Assembly: GCA_024276995.1 (NCBI GenBank)
Contig: JAJRWB010000071.1
Coordinates: 1 to 33,135, forward strand
Reading direction: 5' to 3'
Origin: Candidatus Eiseniibacteriota bacterium
Lineage (GTDB): Bacteria > Orphanbacterota > Orphanbacteria > Orphanbacterales > Orphanbacteraceae
Length of the DNA: 33,135 nt
In this document: one piece after another, positions 578-26,791 of the stretch
Numbering within the stretch: the stretch's first letter is position 1
How the letters are laid out: each line of letters opens with the position of its first letter
The notes under the pieces: generated by a model
Told to the model about the DNA's origin: nothing
Seen by the model: the letters and a program-made list of their open reading frames with translations, nothing else
Database searches by the model: none
Position numbers and translations under genes: made by a program

Positions 578-2053
578 ATGTGTAAACTGTATGCCGGTCG
601 ATTCCTCTTCTTGTTTCTCTCCATCATTCTCTTCGCGTTCCCGGCGGCCGCCCATCGAAGGGGCGTGGATTTCTCGGTGCGGAGCGATGGAGTCGGCAGG
701 GGAACGGTTCCGAATGACGTGGCGGCGATCGCTCCCGACGGCGCTCATCTGTTCCAGAGTTCGGGAAGCTTCGGGAGCTGGCCGGACGGCACGAACCTCA
801 TCCAGGTCTGGGCGCAATCGATCGGCCTTCTCAACGCAGAGGAAGTGGACGCGCTCTCGTGGGGCAACGACCTTGTGCTTCTACCCGCGGAAGTGGGCGG
901 CGGCGCCGATATCGAGTTCTTCTTTTCCGTCGATACTCTCGCCGTGGGAATCCCGGGAGCATGGCCCCCCGACGTGTTCACCGAGGCGCCCTTCGCGGCG
1001 GGGGATATCTATTTCGCCTGGCCGAGACCGTGGCCGTACGGCGGCAACCACCTCGGCGTGCCGGAGCTGATTCTCGGTCTGAACGACCTGATGCCGGTCG
1101 ACGATCTCGACGCGATGACCTTTCTCGAAACCGACCAGGTGGAACCGGGTACGCCGGTCTACTTTTCGGTGGATCGCGTAACGTGCGGCATTGCGGGGAC
1201 GGCGACCGCCGTCCAATGCGCGAATCCCGCGCCGCCGGCGCAGGCGTCGGATGTGTTCCTCTCGTTCGCCGACGGAACGAACCTCCTCTTCGCGAACGAA
1301 TCGACGATGGGACTCGATTGGAACGACGATAATATCGACGCCATGGTGCTCTACGACTGGGGTCCCGCCGGGGTGCCGAACCACGAGCTCGATCCCGGCC
1401 TCGACAAGATCTACTTCTCCGTCGACTATCTCACCTGGGGACTTCCGGGGACGGCGGTGAACGCCGAAGCGATTGCGGGGAACATAGCCGGTGATATTTT
1501 CTATTCCGATTTCACCGGTATGAACTGGAAGGTGCTCGACGGCGTACAACTCGGCCTGCTCGAGCCGGCAACGCCCCAGCAGCTCTTTCCCGACGAGGAT
1601 AATCTGAACGCTCTCGAAACCGACTTGTGGTTCGACACCGACGGAGACCAGATTCCCGACATCGTGGACAACTGTCCGTTCACGGCGAATCCGGCGCAGC
1701 TCGACGGGAATCTCGACGGCATCGGCGACGCGTGCGATCCCACCGGTGTGGAAGGTTCGAGCGAGGAAGGGGTGGATGGGTTCCGCCTGAACGAAGCGGA
1801 GCCGAACCCGTTCCGGCCCGGAACGACGCTCTCCTTCTCGCTCGGTGCGCCGGGGAGGGTTTCGCTGGAGATCTACGGCGTGAGCGGCAGGAGAGTGGCG
1901 ACCCTCGTCGACGGGGCGATGTCCGCCGGGTCCCACACGGTGAGATGGGACGGCAGCGCGGCGGACGGAGCGCTCGCCGGTCCCGGCGTCTACTTCGCCA
2001 GGCTCCGCGCCGGGGGAAGGGAGGCGACGCGGAAGCTGATCCGCCTCGACTGA
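578..2053 (+). CDS. Secreted repeat protein with thrombospondin type 3 repeat and FlgD-like (type IX) sorting tail
   Basis: An exported protein of unknown role. Residues 1-25 are a signal peptide (hydrophobic core FLFLFLSIILFAF, cleavage after AAA). Residues 30-350 hold about three and a half copies of a module whose core is N/D-L-D-A ... Y/F-F-S-V-D ... G-L/I-P-G-T-A (FFSVDTLAVGIPG, YFSVDRVTCGIAG, YFSVDYLTWGLPG). The last copy runs into a calcium-binding thrombospondin type 3 repeat (DTDGDQIPDIVDNCPF to GDACD, about 353-387). Residues 405-491 are a FlgD-like Ig domain (EPNPFRPGTTLSFSL, VYFARLRAGG), the usual sorting tail for type IX secretion in FCB bacteria. The start ATG578 has GGGAGG at 562-567, 10 nt away. 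The gene stands alone between a promoter and a terminator. A surface or released protein is likely; the module itself I do not recognise. Confidence 0.85.
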   Translation: MCKLYAGRFLFLFLSIILFAFPAAAHRRGVDFSVRSDGVGRGTVPNDVAAIAPDGAHLFQSSGSFGSWPDGTNLIQVWAQSIGLLNAEEVDALSWGNDLVLLPAEVGGGADIEFFFSVDTLAVGIPGAWPPDVFTEAPFAAGDIYFAWPRPWPYGGNHLGVPELILGLNDLMPVDDLDAMTFLETDQVEPGTPVYFSVDRVTCGIAGTATAVQCANPAPPAQASDVFLSFADGTNLLFANESTMGLDWNDDNIDAMVLYDWGPAGVPNHELDPGLDKIYFSVDYLTWGLPGTAVNAEAIAGNIAGDIFYSDFTGMNWKVLDGVQLGLLEPATPQQLFPDEDNLNALETDLWFDTDGDQIPDIVDNCPFTANPAQLDGNLDGIGDACDPTGVEGSSEEGVDGFRLNEAEPNPFRPGTTLSFSLGAPGRVSLEIYGVSGRRVATLVDGAMSAGSHTVRWDGSAADGALAGPGVYFARLRAGGREATRKLIRLD

Positions 2054-19439: not shown

Positions 19440-22049
19440 TCACTCCACCACCACCACCCTGCGGACTTTCGTTTCCTCGCCCGCACGGAGTCTCGCGAAG
19501 TAGACGCCGCTCGCGAGGCCGCTCGACGACCAACTCACCGTGCGGATGAAACCGTCCCCTCGGTCGGCGCGGGCGATCCGTTCGACGAGCCTGCCGCGGA
19601 TATCGAACAGCTCGAGCGTCACCGGTCCCTCGTGGCGCGCGGCGAACCGGAAGAGCGTCTCGCCGCGCACCGGGTTCGGTGACGGCGGGTCGAGCATCAG
19701 GGCGAGCGACGTGCCGACCTGGGGTTCGGCTTCGGCGACACCGGTGGGGAGCACGGGAAGATCGACCTCCCAACCGCCCCGCCCGTATGTGCCCGCGACG
19801 AGTTTCCGCGCGGACCGGCGGATTTCGAGGTCGGTAACGACCGCGTTCGGAAGGCCGGTGTCGAAAACGGTCCACGTGCTCCCTCCGTCGGTGCTTGTCC
19901 AGACACCGATGTCGGTGCCGATGTACCACGCCGTCGGATCGTCCCGGTCGATCGCCATGGTGTTCACCGGCTGGGGGGGGAAGTCGCCGGTCACATCGGT
20001 CCACGTCTGTCCTAAGTCGGTGGTCATGGCGATGTGAGCCGCCGAAGTGTAGCCGCCGAAGGTGACGAACGCGGCGGCGGAATCGGCCGGGTGGGCGGTG
20101 ATCTTCGTCTCGCTTCCCACGGCGAAACCGTAAGGATTCGCGGCGGTCCATGTCGCCCCGTCGTCGGTGGAGATGCTCGGACCGGCGCTGTTCACCGACC
20201 AGACGACCTGGTCGCTCGCCGGGCTGCAATCGATCCAGATCGCCGTGTGGGGCGCCACGTTCGTCCACGAAGCCATCCGGTTGTTCGTCCGGAAGATGCC
20301 GTCCGACGTCGATGTGAACAGCTGCTTCGGGCTGTTCGGATTCATCGCCACCGGCGCGAGCCACGCTCCCGACCCGGTGATGCCGGTCATGGCGGCAATC
20401 CAGCTCTGGCCGCCGTCGAGACTCTTCACATGGTTCCCGAACTGCCACTCGGCGTACACGCCGTCGGCGTTGCCGGGACGGATATTGCACACGAACCCGT
20501 CGGCCAGGAGGTTCGAAACGAACCAGTTGTCGACACCGAGACGGCCGGGCAGACCGTTGTCCTGCGCGCCCCCCATGGTGAAGTTCGGGTCGGACTGGGC
20601 GACACAGATATCGTAGAATTGGTACGAGGCGATCCCTTCGCGCCGGGAGGCCCACGTGGCGCCGTCGTCGGTGGAGCGCCAGACGCCCCCGTCATTGCCG
20701 ACCCACAGCGTGTTCGTCGAACCCGGTTCGTAGGCAATGGCATGGTGATCGAGGTGGACGTCGGTCGCGTTCCCGAGAATGAACCCGTCGCCGGTCTTCA
20801 CGAAAGTGGTCCCGGCGTTCGTGGAGCGGTAGAGGCTCACGCCGCCGGCGATCACCACCGACGCATCGTCCGGATCGACGGCGAGGGTGAGGTTGTACCA
20901 CCCCTGGCCGCCCGTCATGTTCGGCCCGCTGTACACTTCGTTCCAGTTCGCCCCGCCGTTGTCGCTTCGGAAGATGCCGAGCGTTCCCTGGGTCGATCGG
21001 TCGACGATATTCGCGTAGATCACGTTCGGCGCCGCCGCGGTGACGGCGATCTTGATCTTGCCGACCGACGCGCTCGGCGGCAGTCCCGTGCCGAGCCACG
21101 ACCAGGTGACACCGTCGTCGGTGGAGATTTTCACTCCATTCGATACCGACCCGCTTCCACTGGCGGCGTAGATCGTCGCCGGGTCGCCCGGCTTGAACTG
21201 GATGTCATAATAATTCCCGTCCGATTTCACCTTCGTCCATGTGTCGCCCTCGTCGGCGGAGCGCCAGAGTCCGTCGTTCGCTCCCGCGAGGATTGTCCCG
21301 GTGAGGGGGCTCGCCTCCATCACGTGGAAGCCGTGTCCGGCGGTCACGGGAAACGAAAGGCCGGTCGTGCTCCACGTGGCGCCGCCGTCGATCGATTTCA
21401 GGACGCCCACGCCGTCGTCCCCCGCGCCGGCGGTCGTCCCCTCGCCCGTGCCGATGAGAACGATATTCGGGTTCGACGGGAGGACGCACACCGCGCCGAT
21501 CGAAAGGGAGGGAAGTTCGTCGGTGGTGGTGCTCCAAGTGGCGCCGCCGTCGGCCGATTTCCAAAGCCCGCCGCTCGCCGATCCGGCGTACACGACGGCG
21601 GAATTCGTCGGGTCGAACTCGATGTCGAGGATTCTTCCCGACATGTTCGACGGTCCGATGGGGAACCACGCGGCGGAAGCGCCCTTCCGTGCGCCGGCGA
21701 AGCGCCGGTTCATCTCCTCCCACACTCTCCAGCGGGCCTCTCCCGCGGTAATACCCAGATCGGTCCACTCCCGTTCGCGAAGCCATTTCGCCCGGTTGTA
21801 CGGCTTCCACCCCGTACTCCGCATCTCCTTCAGTTCCGGGTGGGCGTCGAACCGGAGGCGCAGTTCCTCGAGCCGGTCTTCTGCGGCCGAACGGGCGAAA
21901 GCGCTCTCCCGCGGCACGACGGCGGCGAGCAGGAAGAGTGCCAGCGCCGTCACGGTGAAGCTACGTGAAAACAGATCGAGCGACATCCTCCGGCGTTCGT
22001 GGCGGGCCGTCGATTCGGTGTCGTAGTGGTCGCAACGCAGGGGCATCAT
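19440..22049 (-). CDS. Secreted Asp-box (BNR) beta-propeller protein with FlgD-like sorting tail
   Basis: A protein of about 869 residues, exported and probably carried by type IX secretion. After a signal peptide (FTVTALALFLLAAVVPRESA, cleavage near 52), residues 130-770 hold about eleven Asp-box motifs S-x-D-x-G-x-T-W: KSADGGATWSTT, KSIDGGATWSTT, RSADEGDTWTKV, ISTDDGVTWSWL, RSTDDGATWASR, KSLDGGQSWIAA, TSTDGGSTWTVF and others. These mark beta-propellers of the sortilin/VPS10-sialidase type. No sialidase Arg triad is evident, so a binding role is as likely as catalysis. The last 85 residues are a FlgD-like Ig tail (SPNPVRGETLFRF, VTLELFDIRGRLV, GVYFARLRAG). The tandem ATGs at 22047-22049 and 22044-22046 have GGAGG 5-8 nt upstream; ATG21986 would also give a signal peptide but has no spacing. 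Confidence 0.85.
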   Translation of the reverse strand: MMPLRCDHYDTESTARHERRRMSLDLFSRSFTVTALALFLLAAVVPRESAFARSAAEDRLEELRLRFDAHPELKEMRSTGWKPYNRAKWLREREWTDLGITAGEARWRVWEEMNRRFAGARKGASAAWFPIGPSNMSGRILDIEFDPTNSAVVYAGSASGGLWKSADGGATWSTTTDELPSLSIGAVCVLPSNPNIVLIGTGEGTTAGAGDDGVGVLKSIDGGATWSTTGLSFPVTAGHGFHVMEASPLTGTILAGANDGLWRSADEGDTWTKVKSDGNYYDIQFKPGDPATIYAASGSGSVSNGVKISTDDGVTWSWLGTGLPPSASVGKIKIAVTAAAPNVIYANIVDRSTQGTLGIFRSDNGGANWNEVYSGPNMTGGQGWYNLTLAVDPDDASVVIAGGVSLYRSTNAGTTFVKTGDGFILGNATDVHLDHHAIAYEPGSTNTLWVGNDGGVWRSTDDGATWASRREGIASYQFYDICVAQSDPNFTMGGAQDNGLPGRLGVDNWFVSNLLADGFVCNIRPGNADGVYAEWQFGNHVKSLDGGQSWIAAMTGITGSGAWLAPVAMNPNSPKQLFTSTSDGIFRTNNRMASWTNVAPHTAIWIDCSPASDQVVWSVNSAGPSISTDDGATWTAANPYGFAVGSETKITAHPADSAAAFVTFGGYTSAAHIAMTTDLGQTWTDVTGDFPPQPVNTMAIDRDDPTAWYIGTDIGVWTSTDGGSTWTVFDTGLPNAVVTDLEIRRSARKLVAGTYGRGGWEVDLPVLPTGVAEAEPQVGTSLALMLDPPSPNPVRGETLFRFAARHEGPVTLELFDIRGRLVERIARADRGDGFIRTVSWSSSGLASGVYFARLRAGEETKVRRVVVVE

Positions 22050-22123
22050 CGATTCCTCCGGGAGACGGCTGTTCGGCATGGGAGACGAAAAAAGCGGGAC
22101 GCGGGAGATCGCACCCGGACTTG

Positions 22124-22152
22124 AGCATACCACCATTGGGCGGGCCGATCAA
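22124..22152 (-). promoter_or_regulatory. Sigma70-type promoter for the beta-propeller gene
   Basis: On the minus strand TTGATC (22147-22152), a 17-nt spacer, and TATGCT (22124-22129). Leader about 68 nt. The same stretch contains a near-direct repeat GCGGGCCGATCA / GCGGGCCCGATCA around the -35 box. Confidence 0.5.
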
Positions 22153-23353: not shown

Positions 23354-24790
23354 TTATCCCTTCCGCGGAGCGATGACGATTTCGCCGTCTTCCACGCGGA
23401 CCAGAAGGGGGCCGATTTGTTTTTCCACCACCGTGACGGAGAGGTCGCCGATGCAGAGCGTCGTGTCGGGATAGATTGCGTGAACCACTTCGATTACCGG
23501 CCTTTTCCGGCGGACCGAATCCTTTTCGATCTCAACCACTTCTTGTTCCATCGTGGCGAGGCGATCGTTCATGCGTGCGGTTTCCTTCGGTTCACGACCG
23601 GGATACGAATCGATCATCTTTCGGAGTTTTCGGATCTCCATGTTCTTGATCAGGAGCTTCCCTTCGAGGGCGTAGTCGGTGCCGGCGATCACCGACGTCG
23701 GAACACCGGCGCCGCTGCCGAGGGCGCCCGCCACGATCCCGCCGAGAGCCATCACCGATCCGCCGACGATCCGCCCCCGCTTGATTGAAACGGCGCCGCG
23801 GGAGACGATCGACGACTGGATGATCTCCGATTCGGCAGCCACGTTGCCGTCGGCCACCACGTCGCAATCGACGATGAACCGTGCCCGGATATCTCCGCCG
23901 GTCACCGTTTTCTGTCCTTCGGCGCCGATCATGCCTCCTTTCACGTAAAGCTCGCCCGATGTCTGGATCTGCGCCCCCTCGGCGATGCCGCGCACCTCGA
24001 TATCTCCGGTGGCCTCGAGGCGGAAACCTTCGAGAACATCGCCCATCACCGTCACGATGCCTGGATGGGAGATATTTCCGGTCTCCGGCCCGACGTTTCC
24101 CCGGATGAGGTAGATCGGATCGACGGAGACGATGTTGTTCGCCCATCGAAATCGCCCGCTCGTGCCGGCGTAGTGGGCGCCCGTCTCCTTGTCCACCCTC
24201 ACATTGTCGCCGGCTCGGATCGGCGGAGCGTGAGGCGTTCGCACGGGAATCCTCTTGCCGAACACGTCGAAGCCGTCCTTCCCCTTCTTCGGCGGTACCG
24301 CCACGACGAGCAGCTCGTCCTCGAGAACCGACGTATGTGCCGCAGGCTCGCGGAAATCGATATTCCCGGTGATCTCATCTACGGCGAACCCTTCGTTGAA
24401 GAAGTCGGCCGCCCAGTCGAGTCGGCCGTCCTCCGGTTGGATCGCCACCTCGCCGCGGACGAGTTCGATTTCACGAAACTCAGAGGAATCGCCTGCATTC
24501 TTGCGAAGAAGTGTTTCGATCTCTTCCACCGGTGGCGGCTTCATCACCCTCATCTCGACGAGACCGGTTCGCACTTCTTTCGCGATGCGCCCCGCCTCGC
24601 CGGGGGGAATCACCCCCTCGTAGGTGATCTTCATATGGTCGGACGCCACCCGGAGCTGAAAAGGTCCGGGCCGATCTGTTTCGGGACCGCCCTGTCTCGA
24701 AAAACTGGAGGGACGACTGCTCAAGTTCGATGATCCCCGCGAATCGGCCTTTCCGTCCGGCACGGACGGACGGTTGCAACGGTTGTTCAT
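23354..24790 (-). CDS. FapA/DUF342-family protein
   Basis: A 478-residue cytoplasmic protein of the FapA (DUF342) family. Residues 50-190 are the N-terminal FapA part (MKITYEGVIPPGEAGRI; VDEITGNIDFREP; VPPKKGKDGFDVFGKRIPV). Residues 190-370 are a polar-clamp or beta-helix of repeated short strands (GNVGPETGNISHPGIVTVMG, GDIEVRGIAEGAQIQTSGEL, GGSVMALGGIVAGALGSG), typical of the family. A C-terminal helical segment (KNMEIRKLRKMID ... RMNDRLATMEQEVVEIEK) is probably coiled coil. Members were linked to flagellar assembly and to membrane-domain regulation, but no flagellar gene lies here, so the role is open. The first 50 residues are low in conserved features. ATG24790 has no clear ribosome site; the upstream 60 nt are AT-rich and may hold the promoter. 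Confidence 0.8.
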   Translation of the reverse strand: MNNRCNRPSVPDGKADSRGSSNLSSRPSSFSRQGGPETDRPGPFQLRVASDHMKITYEGVIPPGEAGRIAKEVRTGLVEMRVMKPPPVEEIETLLRKNAGDSSEFREIELVRGEVAIQPEDGRLDWAADFFNEGFAVDEITGNIDFREPAAHTSVLEDELLVVAVPPKKGKDGFDVFGKRIPVRTPHAPPIRAGDNVRVDKETGAHYAGTSGRFRWANNIVSVDPIYLIRGNVGPETGNISHPGIVTVMGDVLEGFRLEATGDIEVRGIAEGAQIQTSGELYVKGGMIGAEGQKTVTGGDIRARFIVDCDVVADGNVAAESEIIQSSIVSRGAVSIKRGRIVGGSVMALGGIVAGALGSGAGVPTSVIAGTDYALEGKLLIKNMEIRKLRKMIDSYPGREPKETARMNDRLATMEQEVVEIEKDSVRRKRPVIEVVHAIYPDTTLCIGDLSVTVVEKQIGPLLVRVEDGEIVIAPRKG

Positions 24791-25010: not shown

Positions 25011-25757
25011 TCAGCGGAAGTCTCTTTTCACGTCTCCCCAGCTCGTCCTCTCGGTGGCGGTGGGACGGTTGCTGAAGTCGACCGAGACGAGCGCGCCGCT
25101 GCTCGAGAACTCCACGTCCATCCTGTCGATAATCTCATAGAGCGTCAGATCGACCTCCTGGTACGAGTTGTTTCCAAGCCCTCCCACGTACTTCGTTCCG
25201 GCGAGGTTATTCTGGAAGTAGAACGTGATGTTTACATGCTCATCATTATCGATGTCGAGAAAGGCGGCGCTCATGATCTGCACGGGACCGGTGAAATCGA
25301 AGCGCATAACGCCGCCGCCCGCCTCGTCGTTCGGCTGATCGACGAGACCGTCGGCGGGAGAGGTGTCGGTCACATTGCTCGCGACGATCAGCAGGTGCCC
25401 GAGGGGGGCGCAGTTTTCGCCCGGCATCGCCGGTTGCCCGCCCGAGCCGATGCCCGGGCCGCCGCAGAGATTGTTCGGAGCGCCGAGATCCCAATCGCCC
25501 CCCGTGGGGGCGGCGGAGTCGAAGATCAGAAGCGAATTCGGTCCGGTGCCGTTGTTCGTTCCCGTCAGCGTGAAATCGGCGAAGTAGGTGTCGCCGGGAA
25601 CGATTCCGCCGCCCGGGGCGTCGCCGGTGACCACCGTCCCCGGCGCGATCGAATTGAAGTCGACCAGTCCCGCCGCGGCCGGAAGGGCGAGGATGAACAA
25701 GAGCGTGGTGGTGAATATGGCGATTCTCTTCGTCGGCATCTTCTTCGTGAGCGGCAT
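25011..25757 (-). CDS. Secreted beta-sandwich protein, paralogue A, with C-terminal WGxVKxxFR tail
   Basis: A 248-residue exported protein, function unknown. Signal peptide at 1-29 (IAIFTTTLLFILALPAAAG). The mature part carries the words VDFNSIAPGTVVTGDAPGGG, SLLIFDSAAPTGGDWDLG, CGGPGIGSGGQPAMPGENC (two Cys probably disulfide-bonded), HLLIVASNV and PVQIMSAAFLDIDNDE, a beta-sandwich-like pattern I recall from secreted proteins of several environmental phyla. It ends precisely in SWGDVKRDFR. Its neighbour at 25931-26665 is a clear paralogue with the same plan and the same tail. ATG25757 has GGGGGA about 8 nt upstream; ATG25739 is possible. It is 173 nt downstream of the paralogue, perhaps co-transcribed. 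Confidence 0.8.
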   Translation of the reverse strand: MPLTKKMPTKRIAIFTTTLLFILALPAAAGLVDFNSIAPGTVVTGDAPGGGIVPGDTYFADFTLTGTNNGTGPNSLLIFDSAAPTGGDWDLGAPNNLCGGPGIGSGGQPAMPGENCAPLGHLLIVASNVTDTSPADGLVDQPNDEAGGGVMRFDFTGPVQIMSAAFLDIDNDEHVNITFYFQNNLAGTKYVGGLGNNSYQEVDLTLYEIIDRMDVEFSSSGALVSVDFSNRPTATERTSWGDVKRDFR

Positions 25758-25930
25758 ACGTCATCCCCCATTTCCCGGAATCAGGACGGAATGTCCGGGG
25801 CACGGCACGGCCGTGCGGCCCGGACCGGTTTTCTATTCCTGTGTATCGGGAGGTGCCGAACGGGGCTGAACCGTCCGTTTCACGCTGTGGGACAACATGC
25901 CGGAATCGCATGGCATTGGGCGGAATCGGA

Positions 25931-26665
25931 TCAGCGGAAGAGCTGCTTCACGCCTCCCCAACTCTCGCGCTCGACCGCCGTGGGCGGTGAGTCGTACGAA
26001 AGCTCCGCCACCGCACCGCTGCTCGAAAGAAATACCTCGATCCGTGTCACGGAGCCGTGTCCGGAAAGATCGATTCTTTGAACCGAGTTGTTGCCCAGAT
26101 CGAGCGCGGGAATCGTCGCGACGAGGGAAGGGCCCGAATAGAGCGACACGTCGGCGGATTCGCCGTCGATATCGACGATGATGATCTCCGAGGGAAGCAC
26201 CGCATCGGGGAAGTCGAAGGAGAGCGTCCCGCCGAGCGCCTCGTCGTCCGGGTCATCGACGATTCCGTCGGCAGGCGCGGCGTCGACGATGTTCTCGGCG
26301 ATGATCAGGAGATTGCCCAGGGCGGTGCAGTTTTCGCCCGGGGAACCGGCGGCCCCTCCCGAGCCGATGCCCGGCCCGCCGCACGAGACGTTCGGGGTGC
26401 CGAGATCGAAGTCGGCACCCGTGGGGGCGGATGAATCGAAGAGGATCGCCGAGTTCGGGCCGCCGCCGCCGCTGTTCACCGACACGGTGAATCCGGGAAA
26501 ATACGTTCCCGGCGCCGTTCCTCCGCCCGGCTCGTCGCCGGCGATCACGGTGCCTGCGACCGGGCCGCTGAAATCCTCCGTGGCGGGTCGCGCCGCGGGC
26601 GGCACGAGGAGGATGCAGATCGCCGCGCCCGCCGTGAACAGGATCTTCCATTGATGAATGAGCAT
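25931..26665 (-). CDS. Secreted beta-sandwich protein, paralogue B, with C-terminal WGxVKxxFR tail
   Basis: A 244-residue exported protein, the paralogue of the downstream gene at 25011-25757. Signal peptide: ILFTAGAAICILLVPPAARP. The conserved words are the same: DFSGPVAGTVIAGDEPGGG, SAILFDSSAPTGADFDLG, CGGPGIGSGGAAGSPGENC, LLIIAENIVDAAPADGIVDD, PSEIIIVDIDGES. It ends SWGGVKQLFR. Sequence identity is highest in the middle and in the last ten residues, with weaker resemblance between them, so the tail seems kept for its own sake. ATG26665 has GGAGG 10 nt upstream; the frame open to 26698 is not needed. It has a near-perfect consensus promoter upstream, so it is probably strongly expressed. 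Confidence 0.8.
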   Translation of the reverse strand: MLIHQWKILFTAGAAICILLVPPAARPATEDFSGPVAGTVIAGDEPGGGTAPGTYFPGFTVSVNSGGGGPNSAILFDSSAPTGADFDLGTPNVSCGGPGIGSGGAAGSPGENCTALGNLLIIAENIVDAAPADGIVDDPDDEALGGTLSFDFPDAVLPSEIIIVDIDGESADVSLYSGPSLVATIPALDLGNNSVQRIDLSGHGSVTRIEVFLSSSGAVAELSYDSPPTAVERESWGGVKQLFR

Positions 26666-26791
26666 TCGATGTAATCCTCCAGGACGACTCTGACTCATGG
26701 GGGCAAGTCGAGATGAAGCTTCTTCTCAGGGAGACGAGACGAGCCGGCCGGAACGGCCGGGCGGGGAAGACAGGATGCTATACGTGATTAA

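Follow-up and report, generated by a model that had tools for sequence, protein, structure and literature searches.

A short C-terminal tail, W-G-x-V-K-x-x-F-R in two adjacent genes of an uncultured bacterium, appears from sequence comparisons to be a real and modular C-terminal sorting signal, most likely an alternative signal of the type IX secretion system (T9SS). More precisely, it is probably a minimal signal of about 10-16 residues that, in FCB phyla other than Bacteroidota, takes over the function of the C-terminal domain (CTD) of T9SS cargo and is read by the T9SS or a receptor linked to it. The evidence for this reading comes from the window, that is, the whole stretch of 33,135 nucleotides of Candidatus Eiseniibacteriota DNA that was analysed, from the genome that contains it and from a sample of 386 bacterial genomes.

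Two paralogous exported proteins carry the tail

The two reading frames for which the first-pass annotation reported this ending are both real; both lie on the minus strand and both encode a hydrophobic N-terminal signal peptide according to a hydrophobicity rule (Table 1). P0001 terminates with RPTATERTSWGDVKRDFR and P0002 with PPTAVERESWGGVKQLFR, each followed by the stop codon. The frame of P0002 is open up to position 26698 (25931-26698), and the start suited to a signal peptide lies at 26665. These proteins are paralogues, with 48% identity over 248 columns, and the genome contains no further member of their family. Because of this paralogy, a tail common to both proves little alone. Neither protein belongs to a Pfam or NCBIfam family above cut-off, neither shows a C-terminal match to the TIGR04183/PF18962 profile, and no homologue of P0002 was found in plasmids, viral contigs or the PDB. 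The AlphaFold model of P0002 has a mean pLDDT of 46.5, with some confidence only in the C-terminal beta-sheet region, and its tail is disordered (pLDDT about 25). A gene for FapA, a flagellar assembly protein A-type beta solenoid (PF03961, PF20250), is located directly downstream of both paralogues, at 23354-24790.

The window carries, beside the WG-tail genes, an alternative signal, the T9SS type-A domain. The proteins at 578 and 19440 score 31.4 and 35.2 bits, respectively, against TIGR04183 (cut-off 23). The tail had been described as unlike the FlgD-type ends of these two proteins, which holds for the sequence but probably not for the function, the latter ends being T9SS type-A domains.

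Table 1. Features of the window and of the loci combining a PorD homologue with a fibronectin-III (FN3) protein
Feature	Position	Strand	Basis or remark
P0001, exported protein with signal peptide, beta-rich body and WG tail	25011..25757	-	248 aa; translation, hydrophobicity
P0001 tail W-G-D-V-K-R-D-F-R with stop codon (TGGGGAGACGTGAAAAGAGACTTCCGCTGA)	25011..25040	-	tail pattern search
P0001 polar/acidic linker P-T-A-T-E-R-T-S preceding the tail	25041..25064	-	fits the general consensus T-A-T-E-x-[TS]-S
P0002, paralogue of P0001	25931..26665	-	244 aa; ATG at 26665 gives a signal peptide
P0002 tail W-G-G-V-K-Q-L-F-R with stop codon (TGGGGAGGCGTGAAGCAGCTCTTCCGCTGA)	25931..25960	-	tail pattern search
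P0002 linker P-T-A-V-E-R-E-S preceding the tail	25961..25984	-	translation, consensus over 134 tails
T9SS type-A cargo, thrombospondin-3 repeats and TIGR04183/FlgD_ig C-terminal domain	578..2053	+	profile matches
T9SS type-A cargo, BNR/sortilin-like propeller and TIGR04183 C-terminal domain	19440..22136	-	profile matches
FN3 protein downstream of a PorD homologue, ending WGSIKAMFR or WGSIKAIFR	L052:8118-9438		
FN3 protein downstream of a PorD homologue, ending WGSIKAMFR or WGSIKAIFR	L054:4995-6767		
FN3 protein downstream of a PorD homologue, ending WGSIKAMFR or WGSIKAIFR	L165:7565-9334		
FN3 protein downstream of a PorD homologue, ending WGSIKAMFR or WGSIKAIFR	L168:9359-11462		

Position and carriers of the tail in the source genome

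A search of the 3.76-Mb genome with the pattern W-G-x-[VIM]-K-x-x-[FY]-x-stop produced 22 matches, against 0.008 expected from base composition; the reversed pattern produced none. When the stop codon was dropped from the pattern and the last residue held to R or S, the six frames of the genome again gave 22 matches, 21 of them directly followed by a stop codon. The last one reads TSWGGIKKLYRR-stop (TSTEETSWGGIKKLYRR-stop). With 21 matches at a stop codon and the 22nd close to one, the motif is therefore confined to C termini in all six frames. Since the window genes are the sole members of their own family, the other 20 tails are borne by other families, including beta-helix, PPC-domain, pullulanase X25-like and lipoprotein bodies as well as many small proteins without a family. 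Confinement to one family or occurrence at internal positions, either of which the first-pass annotation had set against a signal, was looked for and not found.

An evident signal peptide is present in 18 of the 22 tail proteins, both window proteins included, as judged by the hydrophobicity rule and not by SignalP. Of the other four, L013 is cut by a contig end, and the 5' frames of L011, L022 and L024 are broken or unclear. In L022 (G000:C77:17830), an intact tail follows an in-frame stop located 12 codons upstream, as in a broken or frameshifted carrier gene. A lipobox was found in some tail proteins from three lineages (L007:1501-2742 in the source genome, L064 and L065). Such a lipobox is unusual in proteins secreted by the T9SS, and the tail may therefore have a second use. 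The idea of a short C-terminal sorting signal, already put forward for the two paralogues, is strongly supported by the presence of the tail on unrelated exported bodies, always at the C terminus and in many phyla.

Consensus and chemistry of the tail

The consensus T-A-T-E-E-T-S-W-G-x-[VI]-K-x-[LM]-[FY]-R was derived from 134 distinct tails, in all of which W and K were required by the search. The invariance of these two residues is partly a matter of selection, because the defining pattern demands both. Among the other positions, G is found in 122 of the 134 tails, V or I in 128, S or T before W in 126, L or M at -3 in 118, F or Y at -2 in 132 and R at -1 in 124. The shared tail of the two paralogues was called exact; its presence is confirmed, but the adjective overstates the agreement at positions other than W, K and the terminal R. 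The six residues preceding W are acidic, not basic. The tail itself, 9-16 residues long, contains no beta-sandwich and is disordered or forms a short helix in AlphaFold models, and no hydrophobic segment was seen at the C-terminal end of the tail proteins that were read. No model of the tail was found in Pfam or NCBIfam, none of their known sorting models matches it, and a literature search on the motif and on these lineages found no description of it.

The type-A domains of these genomes end in [KR]-[MLI]-x-L-[VLI]-[RK] (28 examples), to be compared with K-x-[LM]-[FY]-[RK] in the tail. The Lys at -5, which the search imposes on all tails, is a candidate equivalent of the Lys/Arg at -6 in the type-A ends.

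Distribution across phyla and association with T9SS genes

Among the 386 genomes of the sample, which represent 258 families of bacteria, the tail is present in 57 genomes and 34 families, with up to 57 copies per genome. All seven genomes of the window's own family contain it (9-39 copies), twelve genomes of other families contain 14-57 copies each, and 38 genomes contain one to four copies, the matches having been inspected individually for part of these. As controls, the reversed pattern gave 9 matches across all 386 genomes and a frame-shifted pattern, one base short, gave 3, none of them in the own family. The carriers that can be named are Candidatus Eisenbacteria, Krumholzibacteriota and other FCB-type lineages. 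The route initially proposed was placed in this lineage, to which the tail is not restricted.

Several observations accompany this survey. A tail of the Eisenbacteria/Krumholzibacteriota type occurs on contigs labelled Gemmatimonadetes (L091, JABDJQ010000207.1) and Fibrobacter sp. (L105, DYDD01000014.1); L091 belongs to the same family as the window and is therefore probably mislabelled. Two related exported proteins from another family of bacteria (L077 and L078, from genomes G146 and G283) have Tyr in place of Phe, and this is the only tail matched in these two genomes. Finally, at G004:C21:223729-226221 five tails follow one another on a single strand at intervals of 612-618 bases and apparently belong to tandem small tail-bearing genes.

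SprA (TIGR04189) was detected in 54 of the 57 tail genomes versus 133 of the 386 overall. Two of the exceptions (G058, G092) are spurious frames of 7 and 14 residues, and the third (G108) is real. At the family level, SprA accompanies the tail in 34 of 34 families versus 88 of 258 overall, with a hypergeometric P of about 8e-19 that ignores shared ancestry above family rank. The association partly reflects shared FCB ancestry. The tail is nested within the SprA lineages, 79 SprA-positive genomes, among them the two that score highest for SprA (G209, G339), being devoid of the tail pattern. The source genome encodes SprA, PorV and PorU: its full-length PorU scores 547 bits (cut-off 420) and adjoins a PorV, and PorV-family matches number 14. 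The copy number of the PorV family does not distinguish T9SS genomes with the tail from those without it, and the conserved neighbours of SprA include nothing recurrent that points to a partner of the tail. Likewise, no recurrent machinery gene was found in the neighbourhoods of tail genes that were read, except the T9SS gene porD.

Stand-alone FN3 proteins

A profile of the FN3 body was built with the tail removed. It detected 19 free-standing proteins, including the 12 from which the profile had been built and which were first recognised by their tail. The tail is present in 17 of the 19, and the other two have variant ends, one with six residues added to the tail and one reading WGSIKALLK. 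In the unbiased part of this set, the seven new proteins, each ends in the tail or in a close variant of it. Identity of the bodies to the reference is 23-37%, while the tail is nearly fixed. In four of 12 loci, belonging to three families, the FN3 gene directly follows, in the same orientation, a gene for a PorD homologue (Table 1); these homologues (DUF4835) match NF052317 at 37-90 bits, below the NCBI cut-off. The FN3 protein adjoining porD may be an overlooked accessory protein of the T9SS. Its model (pLDDT 84) matches fibronectin-III folds and ends in a short helix of low confidence (pLDDT 51-59), not in a strand like strand 7 of the CTD.

Exchange of the tail and the type-A domain on homologous bodies

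In the sister genomes G001 and G004, homology among beta-helix proteins spans hundreds of residues (E 1e-12 to 3e-49) up to a shared body end, ...DPLFCD..GDFTL..SPC..CGLIGA..GC, that is followed by one of two signals. One version continues with a TIGR04183/FlgD-like domain of 75-90 residues ending in ...KKMLLLR, the other with T-A-x-E-x-T-S-W-G-x-V-K-x-[LM]-F-R (TTAVEPTSWGAVKAMFR). Both kinds of carrier neighbour each other in the same arrays (L203, L205, L209). Tandem beta-helix paralogues whose neighbours differ in their C-terminal signals are seen in L203 (G004:C26:60000-73500) and L205 (G001:C4:128000-146000). The beta-helix and FN3 tail proteins that were scanned gave no TIGR04183/PF18962 match. 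Independently, the FN3 domain shows the same exchange: it precedes the type-A domain in the T9SS cargo of L237, L241, L242, L243 and L250 and, in the phyla with few copies, stands alone behind a signal peptide and runs directly into WG[SA]IKA[MLI]FR. The separate export or processing route initially proposed is not supported as stated. Because the tail is nested in T9SS genomes and exchanged with type-A domains at the same junction, an alternative or T9SS-linked signal is likelier than an unrelated route.

Proposed mechanism and rival explanations

In the model that accounts best for these data, the tail protein would be made with a Sec signal peptide and would fold in the periplasm, where the flexible T-A-T-E-x-x-S linker would expose W-G-x-[VI]-K-x-[LM]-[FY]-R-COOH. 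The likeliest receptor is the PorV-family/SprA translocon; it would recognise the Trp, the Lys and the aromatic-Arg terminus, after which the protein would be moved to or across the outer membrane. Passage through SprA would provide this crossing, and cleavage or anchoring by PorU may follow. The conserved Lys of type-A CTDs contacts PorV in solved complexes (PMC10994853). T9SS targeting needs the last CTD residues, and in HBP35 the final 22 are enough (PMC11285876). It is reasonable to regard the tail as a T9SS signal reduced to its recognition end. It is equally possible, by analogy with type-B CTD cargo, which uses another carrier and the same translocon (PMC10994853), that a dedicated PorV-type shuttle reads the tail. 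Strict mimicry of strand 7 is counted against, because the tail is helical in the FN3 model and disordered in that of P0002. Also counted against a T9SS reading are a length below 40-55 residues, the lipobox carriers, the genome G108, the SprA-positive genomes that lack the pattern, the uninformative PorV copy number and the shared FCB ancestry behind part of the co-occurrence.

The tail could also label an undescribed route with its own receptor in many FCB phyla, carrying dozens of proteins per genome, either as a branch that feeds the T9SS translocon with a third class of cargo beside types A and B or independently of the T9SS, a possibility that falls short of being probable. Its SprA-independent form, with a different receptor or route that might, for instance, keep proteins on the periplasmic side of the outer membrane or act as a dedicated anchor in that membrane, is rather unlikely; similar bodies would in that case reach different destinations depending on whether they end in a type-A domain or in a tail. 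The lipoproteins with a tail, the lack of a folded domain and the coexistence of two signals in one genome and even in one gene array are consistent with it, as is a predicted short helix that could bring W, V/I, L/M and F together on a single side. Common ancestry could also produce the co-occurrence with SprA, but this association extends to every tail family, and porD is the only recurrent machinery gene beside the tail genes that were read. The same hydrophobic residues, together with the basic K and R and the helix of the FN3 model, would suit an amphipathic membrane-binding helix or a stability or degradation tag acting without a specific sorting receptor. This is improbable, as the residues vary very little and the carboxyl end is kept free, whereas a membrane helix would tolerate substitution and extension, and W and K are also fixed in the FN3 family, which was found without using the tail.

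A signal of the sortase or exosortase type (LPxTG, PEP-CTERM, MYXO-CTERM, GlyGly-CTERM class), processed by a membrane enzyme, would equally be C-terminal, repeated on unrelated exported proteins and terminated by Arg. It is very improbable here: no hydrophobic segment separates the motif from the basic end, the tripartite architecture is absent, and none of the NCBIfam models for sorting signals of this class gives a match. The paralogy of P0001 and P0002 would fit a domain edge, with the motif as the last strand of one homologous family, a candidate ruled out for all practical purposes by the 20 further tails of the genome on other bodies.

The T9SS signals described so far are folded domains, the smallest being 40-55 residues long and three-stranded, in the short CTDs of Prevotella intermedia (PMC11969387). 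Should nine terminal residues suffice as such a signal, they would represent the smallest unit that the T9SS recognises. Many overlooked cargo proteins would then join the surface proteomes predicted for uncultured phyla, and the tail would serve both as a secretion tag of very small size and as a direct means of testing what PorV-type receptors recognise. A tail that does not depend on the T9SS would mark an unknown targeting route.

Comparison with known systems

The closest known system is the T9SS type-A CTD (TIGR04183, PF18962; FlgD_ig-like PF13860 in these phyla). Like the tail, it is C-terminal, is carried by signal-peptide proteins in genomes with SprA, PorV and PorU, joins homologous bodies at the same junction and shows a basic residue, Leu at -3, a hydrophobic residue at -2 and an Arg/Lys end. 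It differs by its 70-90 residues folded in a seven-stranded beta-sandwich, compared with 9-16 residues for the tail, which lacks motifs B and D and adds a conserved Trp. The short CTDs of P. intermedia illustrate that a T9SS signal can be reduced (PMC11969387), but they retain motifs B, D and E along with their three strands. The type-B CTD (TIGR04131) is likewise an alternative signal for the same translocon; it is, however, a domain of its own, with no sequence match in the proteins scanned. Finally, MYXO-CTERM, PEP-CTERM and GlyGly-CTERM are also short modular C-terminal tags found on dozens of exported proteins per genome; these consist of a motif, a transmembrane helix and a basic cluster, whereas the tail has no membrane segment.
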